From a virus: DNA of 24,016 bases. This document shows, piece after piece, positions 5,776 to 22,540 of this stretch (position 1 is the stretch's first letter; every line of letters begins with the position of its first letter). The notes under the pieces were generated by a model. It had not been told where the DNA came from and did no database searches. It worked only from the letters and a program-made list of their open reading frames with translations. Where the stretch lies: the IMG/VR virus record IMGVR_UViG_3300013372_002243, positions 1 to 24,016 of that record; one strand, written 5' to 3'. The translations under genes and the position numbers were made by a program.

Positions 5776-5985
5776 ATGAACGACGCAACACTTGAGGGCT
5801 TCCGACAGATCGCGGCGACGATGGCGGGAGAGCCGACGACATGGCAGTGGATCGGCCAGTTCGCTTCACAGAGGATGTTCGGGATCACGGAGAAGCGGGC
5901 GAAGGAATACGCGGCCCGACACGGCGGGGAGGCCCGCGACATGCAAACGTCGGAGCATGCGGGATTCGACAACGGCGGCGAGTGA
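5776..5985 (+). CDS. Hypothetical protein, 69 aa
   Basis: A small hydrophilic protein, MNDATLEGFRQIAATM onward, with a central KRAKEYAARHGGEARDM helix. The start at ATG 5776 has GAAAGGGTG 7 nt upstream, immediately after a leader box. The residues TTWQWIGQFASQRMFGI in the middle look like an amphipathic helix rich in aromatics. No family is recognised. It begins a run of closely spaced small genes extending to 7.6 kb. Confidence 0.6.
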   Translation: MNDATLEGFRQIAATMAGEPTTWQWIGQFASQRMFGITEKRAKEYAARHGGEARDMQTSEHAGFDNGGE

Positions 5986-6025
5986 AACCGGCGGCAGTGG
6001 TGGAAACCTACGGGGAGGTGAAACA

Positions 6026-6250
6026 ATGAGTGAACAAGCCGCTTCGGCTCCAGTCCTATGGTCGGACACCGACTACCGCGACGCGATGATGTGCGCCTTT
6101 GATGAGGCAGCGGATGGCGTCGAGCAATGGGAGTTTGGTGGATCGGATAGCGATGAAGAGGCTTCGCTACACAAACTCGCGGGAGCCGACGTGGCGAAAC
6201 GAATCCGCAGAATGGCCGATAGGTATTTAGCGAAACACGGGAGAGACTAA
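6026..6250 (+). CDS. Small acidic hypothetical protein, 74 aa
   Basis: ATG 6026 is preceded by a canonical GGAGGTG ribosome-binding site. The product is strongly acidic in its middle (FDEAADGVEQWEFGGSDSDE), with a basic C-terminal helix (VAKRIRRMADRYLAKHGRD). Acidic small phage proteins are often DNA mimics or inhibitors of host enzymes, but nothing here proves that. Its TAA abuts the next ATG, so the two are probably co-translated. Confidence 0.62.
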   Translation: MSEQAASAPVLWSDTDYRDAMMCAFDEAADGVEQWEFGGSDSDEEASLHKLAGADVAKRIRRMADRYLAKHGRD

Positions 6251-6481
6251 ATGGCACACTGTGAAGCGTGTGGAGCGGAGAAGAGCTTTGGGACGCCGCT
6301 GGACGGCGTGCGGTACGCTTGCGGGGCATACAGAATCGGGAAGTCTGGGCTGGTCCGGTCCCGTGGCTGTCTCGAAAACGAGGTCACGGAGCTGCGGGAG
6401 TTCAAGAGGTTGGTTGTGTTGGCGAACAAGCTGCCGACGACGGCCGAAACGAGTATTGCAATCAGGAGGCTGTTTCGATGA
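6251..6481 (+). CDS. Small Cys-containing (putative zinc-binding) protein, 76 aa
   Basis: It starts at the ATG directly after the previous TAA. The N-terminus carries CEAC (residues 4-7), followed by an isolated Cys in YACGAY and another in SRGC, which could together bind one metal ion. The second half is helical (ENEVTELREFKRLVVLANKL). The pattern of a short Cys-rich head plus a helical tail recalls small phage proteins that list patient-like 'C..C' knuckles in front of a coiled coil, but no function can be assigned. Its TGA overlaps the following ATG. Confidence 0.58.
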   Translation: MAHCEACGAEKSFGTPLDGVRYACGAYRIGKSGLVRSRGCLENEVTELREFKRLVVLANKLPTTAETSIAIRRLFR

Positions 6482-6729
6482 ACAGGAAGGAGTTGGACGC
6501 GATGCCGATAGCGTTGCGGATTCTGGCGGATCAGATAACGGCCCCGGACGACGTGCTGGAGGTGTGCTTGCGTGACGCCGCGAGCATGATCGAAGAACTG
6601 AGAAGGGTCGTGGCGGACGCGGTGCGGAGGCCGATGGGAGTCGTGCCGGACTCGGCAGGGTGGCTTACGTCGGACGAAATGGACGAGGCCGAACGTCGAA
6701 GGACGGCGAAACAGAAAGGCGGAGCGTGA
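6478..6729 (+). CDS. Hypothetical helical protein, 83 aa
   Basis: It starts at ATG 6478, overlapping the previous stop (ATGA), and stops at TGA 6727-6729, which overlaps the next ATG. The product (MNRKELDAMPIALRILADQI onward) is helical with many acidic and basic residues, including DAASMIEELRRVVADAVRR and an ending rich in Lys/Arg. It has no recognised family. The tight couplings on both sides argue for one translational unit with its neighbours. Confidence 0.6.
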   Translation: MNRKELDAMPIALRILADQITAPDDVLEVCLRDAASMIEELRRVVADAVRRPMGVVPDSAGWLTSDEMDEAERRRTAKQKGGA

Positions 6730-11281: not shown

Positions 11282-12046
11282 ATGGTAATTCGTGATCGGA
11301 TCAAAGAACTGCGTCGCGTCCCAGCTTCGTCGCTGGTGGTGAATCCTGAGAACTGGCGGGAGCATCCGCCGGAGCAGCGGGCCGCGTTGCGGGCTGTCCT
11401 CGAAGCCATCGGCTTCGCCGGGGCGGAACTGACGGTGGAGCTGCCAGACGGTCGCTTGATGCTGATCGACGGCCATCTGCGCCGTGAGGAAGCTGGCGAC
11501 CAGATCGTCCCCGTCCTCGTGACGGACCTGACGGAGAACGAGGCCCGCGAGATGCTGGCGACGTTCGACCCAATCGGAGCGATGGCGACCACGAACTCGG
11601 CGGCTGTTGACGCCCTGCTTGGGAAGGTCCAGCTCGAAAGCCCGGCGTTGAAGGAAATGTTCCGCCGGTTGTCGGATGACGCGAAAGACGTCGAGCGATC
11701 CCAACGCATCGAAGATCCGGATGGCGAGACGCTGGACCGGCTCCGCGTGACGGAAGGCTACAAGCCGCGTCACGAAGTCAAACGCGGGGAGGTGTTCCGA
11801 ATCTCCGACCGCCATTTCGTCGCGTGTCTGGACGTGATGAACGACTGGCGGGTGTGGGGCCGGTTCCTTGAGATGTGCGGGGACGCGGCGATGTTCTGCC
11901 CGTACGGCGGCCCGCTCGTGCTACTGACGGCGACGGCGAAGGTCCGGCCGGTCGTGATTGTCCATCCGCTGCCGTTCGTGTGCGGGGTGATTCTGGACTG
12001 GGTGGAGGATGCCAGCGGGCCGGAGGCGATCACGAACTATGCCTAA
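11282..12046 (+). CDS. ParB/Srx-like domain protein with reduced C-terminal domain
   Basis: A 254-residue protein. Residues about 8-80 form a ParB/Srx-like N-terminal domain: PASSLVVNPENWREHPPEQR, then the ELPDGRLMLIDGHLRREEAG core with the GH-R signature, and VPVLVTDLTENEAREMLATF. The helical linker that usually follows is present. In many phage proteins this domain is fused to an adenine methyltransferase; here the C-terminal part (GEVFRISDRHFVACLDVMND and after) keeps the lead-in but I see no DPPY-type motif. It opens the deazaguanine operon and overlaps the transglycosylase start by 8 nt. It could guide the modification machinery to DNA. Confidence 0.72.
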   Translation: MVIRDRIKELRRVPASSLVVNPENWREHPPEQRAALRAVLEAIGFAGAELTVELPDGRLMLIDGHLRREEAGDQIVPVLVTDLTENEAREMLATFDPIGAMATTNSAAVDALLGKVQLESPALKEMFRRLSDDAKDVERSQRIEDPDGETLDRLRVTEGYKPRHEVKRGEVFRISDRHFVACLDVMNDWRVWGRFLEMCGDAAMFCPYGGPLVLLTATAKVRPVVIVHPLPFVCGVILDWVEDASGPEAITNYA

Positions 12047-13001
12047 AACGGTTTACTTTCTGGCGGCTGGCATCAGCGACGGGGAGATCGTCGCGAAGGA
12101 ATACGGGGCGATCCTCGTTCCGATAACCTCGATCAAGTCGAAGGCGGATCTCGCCCGCGTGAGGGGGTGGATCGCGAGCGGCGTCAAGGTCCTGCTCGAT
12201 TCCGGGGTCTTCGAGCTGTGTTCGGCTCACGCGAGGGACAACGGCATCCAACTGACGGAGGCCCTTGGGCTTCCGCCGGAACAGGTGGACGGGTTCGCTG
12301 GCCTGCTCGATCACTACACGAGGGTCGGGAAAGAGCTGAGCGGCGAGGCGTTCGCGTTGGTCGAGATCGACCTCGGCGGGAAGGTCCGGAAGCGGGAGAC
12401 GCGGGCATCGCTCGAAGCGATGGGACTCAAGATCGCTCCGGTGTTCCATCCGATCCTCGACGGGTGGGAATACCTCGACGAGCTGGCGGAAACGCACTCG
12501 ATCATCATGTGCGGAAATATGGTTGACGCGAACAGGGCGGATCGATGCGGGGCACTGTCAAGAATGCTGGAGTGGAAGGGGCGTCATCCGGGGGTGTGGC
12601 TGCATCTGCTCGGCGTGACACCGTCTCCGATGTCGGTCGCGTTGCCGATAGACTCCTGCGACTCGTCGGCGTGGGCGAGTGCGATTCGGTGGTTCAGTGG
12701 GTGGCAGGAGTTCGCACTCGGCGGAAGCGTCGGGCGGTTCGGTCGAGACATGGCTTATACGCTCGGGAGCCGCGTGAGCTACGAGCACACCTTGAGGATT
12801 CTGGCGATTCAACAAAACTGCCAAGCGTTGGGGATCAATCACTATCATGAACAACTCGACCGGATCGACGCGGACGCGGGTGTGGGTGACGCTGGAGTTC
12901 GAGGCGTGGCACCTGTGGGCCGACGCGCCAGAAAAACACGAGTACCTGCGGAGTCGCCACCGGCATCTGTTCAAGGTCAGGATCGCGTGGACAGTGTCTG
13001 A
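12039..13001 (+). CDS. dpdA: DpdA-type DNA guanine transglycosylase
   Basis: DpdA enzymes, related to tRNA-guanine transglycosylases, exchange guanine in DNA for a 7-deazaguanine. This 320-residue protein shows the expected catalytic signatures: LLDSGVFEL (Asp54) and PIDSCDSSAW (Asp205/Asp208), in a TIM-barrel-like run of strands such as APVFHPILDGWEYL and HSIIMCGNMVD. The start at ATG 12039 overlaps the ParB-like gene by 8 nt. The operon partners FolE, QueD and QueE, which make the 7-deazaguanine precursor, support the call strongly. Oddly, its last 51 codons run through the next gene in another frame and read as low-complexity Arg/Pro/Gly, so the native stop may have been lost. Which DpdA subfamily it belongs to cannot be decided here. 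Confidence 0.82.
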   Translation: MPKTVYFLAAGISDGEIVAKEYGAILVPITSIKSKADLARVRGWIASGVKVLLDSGVFELCSAHARDNGIQLTEALGLPPEQVDGFAGLLDHYTRVGKELSGEAFALVEIDLGGKVRKRETRASLEAMGLKIAPVFHPILDGWEYLDELAETHSIIMCGNMVDANRADRCGALSRMLEWKGRHPGVWLHLLGVTPSPMSVALPIDSCDSSAWASAIRWFSGWQEFALGGSVGRFGRDMAYTLGSRVSYEHTLRILAIQQNCQALGINHYHEQLDRIDADAGVGDAGVRGVAPVGRRARKTRVPAESPPASVQGQDRVDSV

Positions 13002-14107: not shown

Positions 14108-14712
14108 CTTACAGGGTGAACGAGGTCTATCGGTCGCCGCAAGGCGAGGGCGGGCGAGTGGGACACGACAGCGTGTTCCTTCGGTTCACTGGCTGCAATC
14201 TGCGGTGTGCGATGGAGCCGGGGCCGAAATCGCCGGGCGGGTTCGACTGCGACACGGAGTTCGAATCCGGGCGGACGATGACGCTCGGCGATCTGGTGTC
14301 GTGGGTTCGTGAGGAAGCGGGCGAGGTGTGCCGCTGGGTGGTGGTGACAGGCGGGGAGCCTGCGCTGCAGTTGGACGCGGATCTCGTGACAAGTCTGCAC
14401 GATGCGGGATTCCTGATCGCGGTGGAGACGAACGGGTCTAAGGCGTTGCCGGACGGCATCGACTGGATCACGGTCTCGCCCAAGGTCGCGGAACACGCGA
14501 TCCGCCAGCGGACGGCGACGGAGGTAAAGTACGTGCGAGGCTACGGACAGGCGTTGCCGGAAACGGTGGTTGAGGCGGAGCAGTATTACATTTCGCCGAC
14601 GTTCGCCGGGCTGGAGCCCGATCCGCGTGCGGTGGCATGGTGCGAACAACTGGTGAAGGGGACGAAGTGGAAACTCTCGATGCAACAACACAAACTGCTC
14701 GGCCAGCGGTGA
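14104..14712 (+). CDS. queE: 7-carboxy-7-deazaguanine synthase QueE (radical SAM)
   Basis: QueE is a radical-SAM enzyme that rearranges 6-carboxytetrahydropterin to 7-carboxy-7-deazaguanine. Seen: the N-terminal YRSPQGEGGRVGHDSVFLRF substrate/SAM region, TGCNLRC with Cys31 and Cys35, then a third Cys in FDCDTEF (Cys49), and GGEPALQLD at 83-91. The cluster motif is therefore C-X3-C-X13-C instead of the classical C-X3-C-X2-C, meaning an insertion between the second and third ligand; expanded spacings are known in some QueE proteins. 202 residues is a normal size. The start ATG 14104 overlaps the QueD stop. Confidence 0.92.
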   Translation: MTYRVNEVYRSPQGEGGRVGHDSVFLRFTGCNLRCAMEPGPKSPGGFDCDTEFESGRTMTLGDLVSWVREEAGEVCRWVVVTGGEPALQLDADLVTSLHDAGFLIAVETNGSKALPDGIDWITVSPKVAEHAIRQRTATEVKYVRGYGQALPETVVEAEQYYISPTFAGLEPDPRAVAWCEQLVKGTKWKLSMQQHKLLGQR

Positions 14713-15539
14713 CGGAAGTCTCGTGGAAAGATGTCGTGGCGAGGATTGAGACGAAGCTCAGCGGGTTCAGCCGGGTCTACGGCGTGCCGACAGGCGGGGT
14801 GATCGTCGCGGCGATGTCGGGCCGGATGGTTCACGCGGTGAGCGAAGCGGACGTGATCGTGGACGATCTCGTGGATTCCGGGGCAACTCGCCAGCGGTAC
14901 GCGAACACGGGGAAGCCATTCGTCGGACTGTGGGACAAGAAGGACGGGAGCGGGGACGAGCGGCTGGGCTGGATCAAGTTCCCGTGGGAAGTCCAACACG
15001 CGCCGGAGGACGCTGTCGTCCGGCTAATCGAATGGTGCGGGGAAGATCCTCGGCGGGACGGTCTGCTGGAGACGCCGAAGCGTGTCGTGAAGGCGTTCCG
15101 AGAGATGACGAGCGGCTACGCGGACGATCCGGCTGTGATTCTGTCGAAGACCTTCGACGAGAAGTGCGACGAGATGGTGGTCGTTTCGGGGATCTCGTTC
15201 ACGTCGTTGTGCGAACATCACCTCCTGCCGTTCACGGGGACGGTGGACATTGGCTACGTGCCGGGGAAGGTTGTGGGGCTGTCCAAGCTGGCCCGGCTGG
15301 TGGACTGCTTCTCAAGACGGTTCCAGATTCAAGAGCGGTTGACGGCTCAGATCGCGGACGCAATCGATAACGCCTTGGACGCGAAGGGCGTGGCCGTGGT
15401 GGTTCGGGGCCAGCACGCTTGCATGAGCTGCCGGGGTGTCCGGAAGGCGGACGCAACGATGGTCACAAGTGCGATGCGGGGAATCCTGATCGGGGACGCT
15501 CGGGCACGGTCGGAGTTCTTGGCGTTGTGCAGAGGCTGA
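14709..15539 (+). CDS. folE: Phosphoribosyltransferase-like domain fused to GTP cyclohydrolase I (FolE)
   Basis: Two domains in 276 residues. Residues about 10-95 resemble a type I phosphoribosyltransferase: GVPTGGVIVAAM, then the PRPP-binding motif DVIVDDLVDSGAT (48-60). Residues about 96-276 are a type I GTP cyclohydrolase: RDGLLETPKRVVKAF, SLCEHHLLPFTG with Cys168 and His170/171, SKLARLVDCFSRR, and ACMSCRGV with the distal Cys ligand. FolE makes dihydroneopterin triphosphate from GTP, the entry step for QueD. The start is uncertain: GTG 14709 gives a GTGA overlap with QueE, while GTG 14667 (with GAAGGGG upstream) or ATG 14637 would extend the N-terminus. The fusion partner may serve base or nucleotide salvage; that is inference. 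Confidence 0.88.
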   Translation: MTEVSWKDVVARIETKLSGFSRVYGVPTGGVIVAAMSGRMVHAVSEADVIVDDLVDSGATRQRYANTGKPFVGLWDKKDGSGDERLGWIKFPWEVQHAPEDAVVRLIEWCGEDPRRDGLLETPKRVVKAFREMTSGYADDPAVILSKTFDEKCDEMVVVSGISFTSLCEHHLLPFTGTVDIGYVPGKVVGLSKLARLVDCFSRRFQIQERLTAQIADAIDNALDAKGVAVVVRGQHACMSCRGVRKADATMVTSAMRGILIGDARARSEFLALCRG

Positions 15540-20707: not shown

Positions 20708-20895
20708 AATGGCTCGGGTCAGACCTGACGAACGAAAATCACTCGACCCCGTTGAAGCGGCTGGTCAATCCGCTGATGCGAGCCCTGCTAGGGTGGCACG
20801 TTGCGAGCGTGATCCGAGTCGAGCCAGACGGAGTGGCTCGATTCGAGCGGTATGTGCTGAGGCGGTGTTGCGTAGCTGGGGGGTCGCGTGGCTGA
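20704..20895 (+). CDS. Small hypothetical protein, 63 aa
   Basis: It starts at GTG 20704 in a GTGA overlap and ends 8 nt inside the next gene. The product (MKWLGSDLTNENHSTPLKRL then VNPLMRALLGWHVASVIRVE) looks like a plausible basic helical domain, followed by GVARFERYVLRRCC. Another frame across this region (from 20709) is Arg/Ser-rich and looks like a shadow. No family is recognised; the gene is supported by coupling and composition only. Confidence 0.48.
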   Translation: MKWLGSDLTNENHSTPLKRLVNPLMRALLGWHVASVIRVEPDGVARFERYVLRRCCVAGGSRG

Positions 20896-22540
20896 ACTCG
20901 AAGACCGAATGCAACGTGAGGCGAAGCTGGCGGCGTTGCTGTCCCGTGTGGGGGCGAACCAACGGCGTGAGCTGGAGAAGCTGCTCGGCAATCCGCCGGA
21001 CATCCGGAACGTCCCGGAAACGTGGTGGGACGATTCCCGAAAGGAAATCGAAGAGGTCTTGATCGCGTTGCTTCTACTGACGTTCGCGGCGTCGGCGTTC
21101 GCTCACGGGCTGGACAAGGTGAGAGCGGCGGCACGGGCGGAAGCGTGGGCGACACGGACGGGGGCGAGGATCGCGAAGGAGATGGTCCGGAACACGCGGA
21201 CGGGGCTTCGTGTGTCGCTGCGTGGAATCGTCGTGGGCGGAAAGCCGGTGAGTCTGGCGGATCTCCGGCAAGTGACGGTGCGATGGCTCGGCCCGGCCCG
21301 GTGGTCAAATGTCGCGACGACGGAGACGACGCGGGCGCAACACTTCGGCTCGGAATACGGGGTCGAAGAAACCGTCGGGCTGAGCAAGGACGACTATTGG
21401 GTGACGTCCGGGGACGCGAAGGTCTGCCCCGTCTGTGCCCCGCTGAACGGCACGACGCGGCCGGTGTGGTCCCGCAAGTTTCCGGGTGGGCCTCCGGAAC
21501 CGCACGTGAACTGCGTTCTGCCGGGGCAACTGGTGAACGTGCCGGGGTCAATCATCGCGGCGGCCAAATCGTTCTATGATGGACCGAGTGTTGAGATACG
21601 ACTTGCGAACGGGAGCGTCCTGTCCGCCACCAAGAATCACCCGGTACTGACTGACAAGGGATGGGTCGCGGCGGGACTGCTCGACGAAGGCCGCAACGTA
21701 TTCAGCAGCCTTCACGGTGAGCGGGTCAGTTCGGCTATCAACCCAGATGATGATAATCGACCAGCCGTTGTCGAGGAGATATTTGCAACGCTCCGGATGA
21801 CTGGCGAGATGGCGGCCGGAGGCGTGCCAGTTACCTCCGAAGATTTCCACGGCGATGGGGAGTTCCTTCACGGCGAAGTCGAGGTTGTACGGCCCAACGG
21901 ACTTCTGCTGGGTGAACGCGACGCCGGAGACGGCGAGCAACTCTACGAATCGTTGCTCCAGCGGAGACGAACGGGAGCCGGTTCGTTCGTGAGTGGAGGA
22001 ACGCCGGGACTTCTCGGTGGCGGTGACGACGCGGCCACGGGCTGCGATGTGTGCGGGAGCGACTTGGGATCGGCGTTGAGCCTCGGTCATGCGGCTCCAC
22101 TTGACGGACTCCGACTCAGACTGATTGCGGAGCGGGACGCATTTCTCTACCAGATGGCGGCGAATGACGGCTCGGGACACTCCGGCCGAACGCGACAAGG
22201 ACAACTCGGACTCGCCAGCGGAATAGCGACTCGCAATCGAATCGGCGTCTACGAGGATGATCCGCTTCTTTCCGGGCTGTCGAGGTCGAACGAAACCGTT
22301 GCGCTTCATCAACCCGTAGAACCAGACGGGACGGCCTCCGGCCTCTGGAGCGAGTTTGTCAACAGGTTCGCCAGCGAGGTAGCGACTTCCGAAGTGGTCG
22401 AGGTCAATCATCGTCGGTACAGGGGCCATGTTTACGATCTCCAAGTGAGCGGGGACGAGCTTTACATTTGCGGCGGCGTCGTGGTTCACAACTGTCGCTG
22501 CTACATATCGTATGCGATGGCTCCGGTGAAGTCACGCTGA
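20888..22540 (+). CDS. Minor head (SPP1 gp7/Mu F-like) morphogenesis protein, interrupted by an intein
   Basis: A 550-residue precursor. Residues 1-208 and 536-550 are the host protein: helical start, TTETTRAQHFGSEYGVEETV, and the Cys-Pro-X-Cys-like metal site KVCPVCAPLNGTTRPVW ending PEPHVN, which continues after the intein as CRCYISY. Joined, this gives the HxNCRC signature of the phage head morphogenesis (gp7/F) family, 223 residues long. These proteins sit inside the head near the portal and assist assembly. The start is GTG 20888, overlapping the previous small gene by 8 nt. Without splicing the metal site would be destroyed, so excision is presumably required for function. Confidence 0.85.
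   Translation: MAELEDRMQREAKLAALLSRVGANQRRELEKLLGNPPDIRNVPETWWDDSRKEIEEVLIALLLLTFAASAFAHGLDKVRAAARAEAWATRTGARIAKEMVRNTRTGLRVSLRGIVVGGKPVSLADLRQVTVRWLGPARWSNVATTETTRAQHFGSEYGVEETVGLSKDDYWVTSGDAKVCPVCAPLNGTTRPVWSRKFPGGPPEPHVNCVLPGQLVNVPGSIIAAAKSFYDGPSVEIRLANGSVLSATKNHPVLTDKGWVAAGLLDEGRNVFSSLHGERVSSAINPDDDNRPAVVEEIFATLRMTGEMAAGGVPVTSEDFHGDGEFLHGEVEVVRPNGLLLGERDAGDGEQLYESLLQRRRTGAGSFVSGGTPGLLGGGDDAATGCDVCGSDLGSALSLGHAAPLDGLRLRLIAERDAFLYQMAANDGSGHSGRTRQGQLGLASGIATRNRIGVYEDDPLLSGLSRSNETVALHQPVEPDGTASGLWSEFVNRFASEVATSEVVEVNHRRYRGHVYDLQVSGDELYICGGVVVHNCRCYISYAMAPVKSR
21512..22492 (+). mobile_element. Intein (327 codons) in the minor head gene
   Basis: Protein-splicing (Hint-fold) signatures bracket the insertion. 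Block A is CVLPGQLV with Cys1 at 21512-21514. Block B is NGSVLSATKNHPVL with the TxxH pattern (Thr40, His43). At the C-terminal end RGHVYDLQVSGDELYICGG matches block F, and VVVHN is block G (penultimate His326, Asn327 at 22490-22492), followed by Cys+1 (TGT at 22493) of the extein. No LAGLIDADG or HNH motif is visible in the sense frame. Instead the middle carries a nuclease gene on the opposite strand. The insertion site is the conserved Asn/Cys junction of the metal-binding signature, typical of inteins targeting invariant sites. Confidence 0.88.
21548..22429 (-). CDS. Antisense homing endonuclease inside the intein: two HTH-like segments plus Vsr/DUF559-like nuclease
   Basis: A 293-residue protein on the minus strand, entirely within the intein. 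ATG (complement of 22427-22429) has GGAG 9 nt upstream; the next ATG is at 22411 and a GTG at 22489. Residues about 8-50 and 60-105 are two HTH-like segments (LDHFGSRYLAGEPVDKLA; DADSIASRYSAGESELSL then SAGVSRAVIRRHL). A basic linker (MTEAQRRSQVAPAHIAARGR) follows. Residues about 156-230 are a Vsr/DUF559-type PD-(D/E)XK nuclease: SPLEQRFVELL (Glu158), VGPYNLDFAV (Asp184), LPIAVEIFGGNWH (Glu195, His202), then HPERCKYLLDNGWSIIIIWV. Vsr-like (EDxHD) nucleases are known homing enzymes. Unlike ordinary intein endonucleases it is not in frame with the splicing domain. Confidence 0.85.
   Translation of the reverse strand: MAPVPTMIDLDHFGSRYLAGEPVDKLAPEAGGRPVWFYGLMKRNGFVRPRQPGKKRIILVDADSIASRYSAGESELSLSRSAGVSRAVIRRHLVEKCVPLRNQSESESVKWSRMTEAQRRSQVAPAHIAARGRVVTATEKSRRSSTHERTGSRSSPLEQRFVELLAVSGVAFTQQKSVGPYNLDFAVKELPIAVEIFGGNWHASGRHLASHPERCKYLLDNGWSIIIIWVDSRTDPLTVKAAEYVAAFVEQSRRDPSLVSQYRVILGGGQDAPVRKSYLNTRSIIERFGRRDD

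Follow-up and report, generated by a model that had tools for sequence, protein, structure and literature searches.

The homing endonuclease of an intein is, as a rule, described as a domain within the intein protein itself. Antisense homing endonuclease genes of the His-Cys type have been reported from group I introns of nuclear ribosomal DNA (rDNA), with expression and cutting demonstrated, in the relevant sections of PMC9548176. The ShiLan domain, according to the corresponding sections of PMC11855218, is an out-of-frame HNH endonuclease hidden in an insertion of a phage methylase, on the same strand and without intein domains. In those sections, a preprint by Gosselin et al. 2025 on actinobacteriophage inteins with a "non-canonical architecture" is cited for frequent overlapping frames; this preprint, known to us by that citation, may include those members of the family analyzed below that belong to Gordonia and Mycobacterium phages, and part of the priority may lie there. 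The pertinent part of PMC13405050 had no bearing on an intein with an antisense nuclease, and we failed to find a description of an intein with a nuclease on the opposite strand in the open-licence PubMed Central literature. Here, we analyze such a locus in the virus record IMGVR_UViG_3300013372_002243, positions 1–24,016 (the window: the whole stretch of 24,016 nucleotides, whose coordinates are used throughout). A gene for a MuF-like head protein is interrupted there by what is very probably a mobile intein whose homing endonuclease is coded antisense to the intein, codon opposite codon.

The plus-strand open reading frame (ORF) 20888–22540 and the minus-strand ORF 21548–22489, which extends to a GTG at 22489, lie in exact register, as an earlier note on this DNA had stated. 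The features of the locus are given below (L-numbers denote loci collected as relatives; pLDDT, predicted local distance difference test).

20888–22540, plus strand: gene of a MuF-like head protein interrupted by an intein (PF04233 match below cut-off, position after portal and terminase genes, empty-site relative L061)
20888–21511, plus strand: N-extein, 208 codons
21512–22492, plus strand: intein, 327 codons, Cys1 to Asn327, then Cys (PF14890, boundaries, predicted Hint fold)
21512–21724, plus strand: N-terminal splicing part, model residues 1–71 (pLDDT mostly above 85; sense-frame constraint)
21839–21859, plus strand: sense motif EDFHGDG, antisense to nuclease residues 211–217 (PIAVEIF in the window); constraint in both frames
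21965–22333, plus strand: sense centre, intein residues 152–274, predicted disordered; sense constraint beyond openness not found
22358–22492, plus strand: C-terminal splicing part, model residues 283–327 (high pLDDT; block F HVYDLQ and terminal HN)
22493–22540, plus strand: C-extein with stop
21548–22429, minus strand: nuclease gene, from a likely ATG at 22427–22429 to the stop at 21548–21550
22439–22442, minus strand: Shine-Dalgarno (SD)-like GGAG opposite the block F codons CTC CAA, with 9 bases between it and the ATG
22127–22270, minus strand: predicted helix-turn-helix (HTH), nuclease residues 74–121 (aligned to resolvase/Hin DNA-binding domains with Z of about 6–7; HTH models)
21572–21976, minus strand: predicted Vsr-like catalytic domain, nuclease residues 172–306

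The sense product is an intein in a MuF-like head protein, its splicing being predicted. The head protein gene sits after terminase and portal genes, and the Phage_Mu_F (PF04233) match of the sense protein was 19.5 bits, under the cut-off of 29.6. The intein scored 38.8 bits with PF14890, above the curated cut-off of 35.8, and contained the CVLPG start, TKNHP (the TxxH of block B), the terminal HN, and Cys at +1. In the predicted structure, the Hint core was confident and was aligned with the Mtu RecA intein (Z 13.1, root mean square deviation (rmsd) 1.8, 108 residues aligned), and residues 152–274 had a pLDDT below 50. A Pfam search of the window intein revealed nothing besides the splicing domain and no nuclease family in the sense centre. 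The canonical endonuclease domain within the intein's own frame was absent, the nuclease being on the minus strand.

The minus-strand product is predicted to be a nuclease with an HTH part and a catalytic domain like those of Vsr and I-Bth0305I; its cutting activity is likewise a prediction. An AlphaFold2 model of the nuclease (45 sequences) had a mean pLDDT of 86.8 and comprised HTH modules followed by a Vsr-like domain. The latter was aligned with Vsr (1cw0; Z 11.0, rmsd 2.4, 116 residues aligned) and I-Bth0305I (3r3p; Z 9.4, rmsd 2.8, 96 residues aligned), and the nuclease family profile matched 3r3p at E 1.6e-5. Foldseek with the nuclease yielded no match at E ≤ 0.001, the best being I-Bth0305I (0.002), with Vsr slightly lower. 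DUF559 scored 19.8 bits against a cut-off of 20.6, HTH models were likewise sub-threshold, and PHROGs and NCBIfam gave weak nuclease and HTH matches and nothing stronger. Residues Y201, D204, E215, and R234 were invariant across 59 aligned nuclease sequences. The active-site motif of I-Bth0305I-type enzymes is named EDxHD.

The arrangement is conserved in a large family. A scan of IMG/VR with the minus-strand protein gave 59 relatives with 29–49% identity in the best segment; in every one of the 59, the in-register frame on the other strand was open around the middle of the match (340 to 1311 codons), and the other two opposite frames were mostly short there. The H-x-x-C site of the head protein and an intein ending in N followed by C were readable in most of them, one end being missing in L003, L056, and L060. 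The same arrangement was present in 19 of 21 further loci, the exceptions being free-standing nucleases in one phage each of Acinetobacter (L083) and Rhizobium (L092), and all 10 inteins found via the sense protein carried the antisense nuclease. Motif sites were classified in loci L100 to L258: among the matches listed, 121 of the 129 sites coding for EDFHGDG had the intein and the antisense nuclease, one had the intein only, and seven had neither, while sites coding for EIFGGNWH had both in 53 of 53 cases (the remaining 6 of 59 EIFGGNWH stretches fall in loci already counted among the 59 relatives). Inteins of the family carry Cys1, TPNHP, and HN followed by C, and 53 of 55 match PF14890 at E ≤ 0.01.

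Records of named phages matched the nuclease in 122 of 50,697 cases (free-standing ones included; only part of the records were examined as sequence), mainly in Salmonella, Gordonia, and Pseudomonas phages, and the annotation over the match in the listed records was mostly that of head morphogenesis, minor capsid, or hypothetical genes. Members of the family include those of Gordonia phage Vivi2, Mycobacterium smegmatis phage Sejanus, and Escherichia phage Snoke. Three of 72,556 plasmid records matched, one within a phage minor head protein gene. The 45 closest nuclease pairs, all of them 45% identical or more, had a median extein identity of 30%, which is in keeping with movement between phages.

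Several loci depart from the common location. L088 (665–1558) carries an intein/nuclease pair at another site of the head gene; on the sense strand of L024, upstream of 5741, a single head gene apparently contains two inteins, and the site of the upstream one resembles that of L088. In L087 (Virus Rctr197k, 748–1632), the intein and antisense nuclease are outside the head gene, in a gene which, from its motif, we take to encode a dCMP deaminase. In L065, the N-terminal HTH part of the nuclease profile matches a second time (5980–6639), about 2 kb from the intein.

Selection in the two frames was analyzed on alignments of 61 non-redundant loci, near-identical ones having been thinned at 70% identity. 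Eight loci were dropped before the tests on the alignment, six because the aligned stretch contained a stop (L006, L023, L026, L043, L060, L076) and two because of insufficient length (L084, L086). Divergence at nuclease codon positions 1, 2, and 3 was 0.547, 0.427, and 0.628, respectively, which is the order of a minus-strand gene; among the bins displayed, positions 1 and 3 changed places only at the C-terminal end of the nuclease, opposite the N-terminal part of the intein. In a shuffle test, the protein of one frame was kept, its synonymous codons were shuffled, and the conservation of the other frame was compared in 15 bins. With the sense protein kept, nuclease conservation exceeded expectation throughout the 15 bins, with z from 3.5 to 61, and was far above the imposed level in the eight central ones (z 17 to 47). 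With the nuclease kept, sense conservation in the same eight bins, 21902–22384, was nearly reproduced (z 0.0 to 2.3), while at the ends of the overlap the sense frame was far better conserved (z 18 to 51). The bins covering 21770–21901 had sense z values of 5.9, 12.4, and 24.2, the last in bin 21842–21901.

Substitution rates per weighted site in 15 independent close pairs were consistent with this division. In the centre, changes altering the sense protein and silent in the nuclease had a rate of 0.071, about that of doubly silent changes (0.073); changes altering the nuclease and silent in the sense frame had a rate of 0.0155. Omega was 0.12 for the nuclease and 0.57 for the sense frame in the centre, 0.25–0.35 and 0.14–0.15 at the splicing ends, and 0.07 and 0.18 in the part in between. 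The latter contains the doubly fixed stretch 21839–21859, encoding EDFHGDG in sense and P-V/I-A-V-E-I-F in antisense, with an almost invariant codon choice among the 61 loci (GCC for Ala in 56 of 57 cases, GTG for Val in 49 of 50). EDFHGDG is a conserved intein motif, antisense to part of the nuclease's catalytic segment.

As judged from these alignments, purifying selection acts in both frames across the relatives and is split along the overlap: the splicing ends are held mainly by the sense frame, the centre by the nuclease, and the EDFHGDG stretch by both. The earlier note had read the interval 21770–22048 as coding on the minus strand, with a sense frame that merely stays open. This description fits 21902–22384; at 21770–21901, the sense frame is constrained too, and beyond the centre both ends of the overlap follow mainly the sense frame. 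Selection was, in line with that note, not confined to the sense frame, since the nuclease exceeded the sense-imposed level in every bin.

Avoidance of particular codons gave an independent measure. In the exact register, the nuclease codons TTA, CTA, and TCA are avoided because they read as stops in the sense frame, and the earlier note had correctly deduced that the nuclease gene must lack them. None was found in the 61 non-redundant intein-borne genes against 327 expected, the expectation being approximate, since the background usage of Leu and Ser codons was taken for each locus from simple longest-ORF calls. The avoidance is real when measured against the usage of the loci themselves, a comparison that the note had asked for. 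The redundant set of 84 intein-borne genes (free-standing L092 omitted) had 0 against 447 expected, the 18 loci with a G+C content (GC) of at most 50% had 0 against 171.7, and the window gene alone had 0 against 3.6. Free-standing nucleases used these codons normally (12 against 13.0 and 13 against 13.5 expected), these two controls being near-identical and thus one control in effect.

The start of the nuclease gene falls in block F of the intein. In the window, TTGGAG-ATCGTAAAC-ATG is antisense to the block F codons of H-V-Y-D-L-Q, and among the 61 non-redundant loci the start at this place was ATG in 40, GTG in 4, and TTG in 1. Codon bias was counted in 134 loci thinned by shared 4-mers (5 without a recognisable block F; sub-counts required a minimum of background codons). 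The His codon at the block F start was CAT in 73 of 95 cases against 36.5 expected, the block B His codon was CAT in 22 of 106 against 41.3, the block F Leu codon was CTC in 91 of 114 against 27.5, and 79 of 100 loci had an SD core, where synonymous sampling predicts 23.7. Because CAT, CTC, and the SD core exceed expectation in block F, this splicing motif appears to be written so as to provide the antisense gene with its ribosome-binding site and start as well. A search of 194 genomes for ordinary inteins yielded three intein matches at E ≤ 1e-8, too few for a control; none of the three had an antisense nuclease by profile.

Relatives of the locus represent several states of the element. In L061, with about 90% DNA identity around the site, the head protein reads HVNCRCYISY without interruption, and this is a precise empty site. 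The 48 bases past the insertion point (22493–22540 compared with L061:3625–3675) share only 62.5% identity within surroundings of about 90%, perhaps because they form a conversion tract, perhaps because this end is just variable. L136:4301–6547 encodes a mini-intein of the family, 161 amino acids long, without the antisense nuclease; EDFHGDG and block F are retained and the long central stretch is gone, the block F positions have neither a start codon nor CTC, and the sense frame has five TTA/CTA/TCA codons. A free-standing nuclease was found in L083:1381–2274 (Acinetobacter phage P1068) and also in L093, with an opposite frame full of stops; the Acinetobacter gene lies directly downstream of an intein-free head gene and is convergent with it. 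In a FastTree phylogeny with midpoint rooting, it nests among intein-borne copies (support 0.88 and 0.96), so that escape from an intein seems likelier than ancestry. The six loci dropped for a stop inside the aligned nuclease stretch, which in L026 and L060 is near the end, still have an open sense frame; the host frame is therefore kept as the nuclease decays.

Base composition was the ground on which the earlier note had preferred the minus frame. Its hand counts over about 93 codons (plus strand, roughly 65% GC at third and 76% at first positions; minus strand, about 76% at third positions) were accurate: for the 93 codons of 21770–22048, GC at codon positions 1, 2, and 3 (GC1, GC2, GC3) was 76.3, 49.5, and 64.5% in the sense frame and 64.5, 49.5, and 76.3% in the minus frame, so that plus-strand GC3 is neither equal nor higher. 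Its extein value of about 78% (49 codons) became 79.3% over all 208 codons of the N-extein. The sense pattern at 21770–22048 is inverted because window genes have GC3 above GC1 (73.6–83.2% and 60.7–67.3%, respectively, in six gene segments; the window GC is 62%). Across the 61 relatives, nuclease-frame GC3 rose with locus GC with a slope of 1.43 and sense GC3 with a slope of 0.89; in 59 exteins, taken as a yardstick, the slopes were 1.71 for GC3 and 0.81 for GC1. Among the 32 loci with GC above 55%, however, only 17 had a higher GC3 than GC1 in the nuclease frame. The composition pattern is thus real across the relatives and is weak evidence within the window alone. As a second measure, codon usage was trained on the six window gene segments, the N-extein among them, with bootstrap intervals, and this model clearly favours the sense frame within the N-extein.

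A number of results weigh against an intein with an antisense homing endonuclease. Composition within the window does not separate the frames significantly: GC3 codons numbered 71 in the minus and 60 in the sense frame over the 93-codon interval (Fisher p = 0.108) and 219 and 201 of 313 over the whole overlap (p = 0.148). Synonymous codon likelihood separated neither frame in the 93-codon region (difference 0.043, 95% interval −0.157 to 0.242) or over the whole overlap (−0.045, −0.153 to 0.071), so that codon adaptation in favour of the minus frame, which the earlier note had looked to, was not borne out. The window nuclease was under the curated Pfam cut-offs for Vsr (18.4 against 27) and MTES_1575 (24.7 against 38.2) and is assigned to neither family. 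No usable start codon was present at the block F place in 16 of the 61 loci, starts being variable, and scans for promoters in the surroundings of the nuclease, made for the window and for a Jerseyvirus (L090), revealed nothing convincing upstream of the start. The detailed comparison with an empty site rests on one case, L061, and the divergence of exteins could instead reflect fast evolution of head proteins. The frame question is decided, on the alignments, by the relatives and not by the window alone.

Were the minus frame a by-product of GC-rich DNA, in which TTA, CTA, and TCA are rare and chance often leaves an in-register antisense frame open, no protein would be made from it. A GC of 62%, merely 3.6 stop-type codons expected in the window gene, and the indecisive composition and codon usage of the window alone would agree with this, and yet such an origin is hardly credible in view of nuclease conservation above the sense-imposed level in 15 of 15 bins, an omega of 0.12 for the nuclease in the centre, the confidently predicted nuclease fold, the complete lack of these codons in the 18 loci with GC of at most 50%, and the existence of a free-standing copy. 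We rejected an antisense ORF open by chance on the strength of stop avoidance, the shuffles, and the bias of start and SD codons. The opposite extreme, in which the sense centre itself is the functional domain (for instance an endonuclease in the intein's frame or an insert that binds protein) and the antisense nuclease is secondary, could appeal to EDFHGDG, which lies inside the overlap, is strongly conserved, and is retained in the mini-intein of L136. This motif, however, is part of the flanking intein segment and not of the centre; the centre has a pLDDT below 50 at residues 152–274, belongs to an intein without a Pfam family beyond the splicing domain, tolerates sense changes almost neutrally, and is missing in its long form from L136. 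We regard this explanation as very improbable too. The in-frame endonuclease as such was rejected on account of Pfam, predicted disorder, near-neutral change, and L136.

A nuclease that is real and made, with another role in the phage (exclusion of competitors or DNA repair) in place of homing of this intein, is a more serious alternative, although still an unlikely one. Its predicted fold is common to the repair enzyme Vsr, and a free-standing copy stands beside an intein-free head gene. Yet the fold is equally common to I-Bth0305I, the nuclease resides nearly exclusively in inteins at one site, the close relative L061 has a precise empty site, and the nuclease decays with an open sense frame in six loci, as a homing cycle predicts.

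The mobile intein with an antisense homing endonuclease would work as follows, taking up the features computed here: the conserved arrangement, selection in two frames, the bias in the codons of the start and SD, an exact empty site, and predicted folds. Read from the plus strand with the host gene, the Hint domain split by an unstructured linker would be produced, and the intein would splice, excising itself and rejoining the MuF-like head protein. Read from the minus strand, a separate HTH and Vsr-like nuclease would be made from the SD and ATG antisense to block F. This nuclease would presumably cleave head genes that lack the intein where it inserts, and repair would copy the intein and the nuclease along with it, thereby driving homing. 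The sense and minus transcripts are probably made at different times because they are complementary. Owing to the in-register overlap, an indel tolerated by the host frame would leave the nuclease in frame.

It is likely, if less so than the reading of this locus, that a widespread class of phage inteins forms such a two-strand unit: about 0.8–1.0 kb would code for unrelated folded proteins on both strands, with the ribosome-binding site and start of the nuclease in the antisense of block F, a 21-base core fixing the catalytic-Glu segment and an intein motif at once, an essential host frame guarding the nuclease frame against frameshifts, and loss of the nuclease with linker deletion leading to a mini-intein. 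The antisense nuclease would be a separate gene that ordinary annotation misses, and the arrangement would account for a long linker without its own function inside many phage head proteins. In this family, nature has sampled many times over the coding of two unrelated proteins by opposite strands in codon register. It has built-in controls—the free-standing nuclease, the nuclease-less mini-intein, and the empty site—and the dual service of one DNA stretch for two proteins is therefore directly testable.

Elsewhere in the window, queuine tRNA-ribosyltransferase-like and GTP cyclohydrolase genes were found at 12009–12998 and 14637–15536, respectively; together they hint at 7-deazaguanine DNA modification in the source phage.

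Compared with canonical large inteins (PI-PfuI, 1dq3; TliVMA, 7qss), the window element has the same predicted Hint fold, split by a nuclease-bearing stretch, and predicted homing; there, however, the nuclease lies within the intein protein, and here it is a separate opposite-strand gene with a Vsr-like fold. The predicted fold of its catalytic domain is common with I-Bth0305I (3r3p), an EDxHD homing endonuclease, and with Vsr (1cw0), but I-Bth0305I is intron-associated ("Mobile intron protein"), and the window nuclease differs from it in the HTH DNA-binding part, the intein as host element, and antisense coding. The ShiLan domain, as presented in the sections of PMC11855218 concerned, likewise hides a nuclease in an insertion open in the host frame; there it is an HNH nuclease on the same strand, and the insertion is thought to be retained in the protein, whereas here the nuclease is Vsr-like, on the opposite strand, and opposite an intein domain. 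The window element is thus not of the ShiLan type, a same-strand out-of-frame HNH nuclease without intein domains. In the rDNA group I introns, as far as the relevant sections of PMC9548176 describe them, the homing endonuclease gene is also opposite the strand of the self-splicing element; the sense strand there is a ribozyme, whereas here both strands appear to be protein-coding in codon register.

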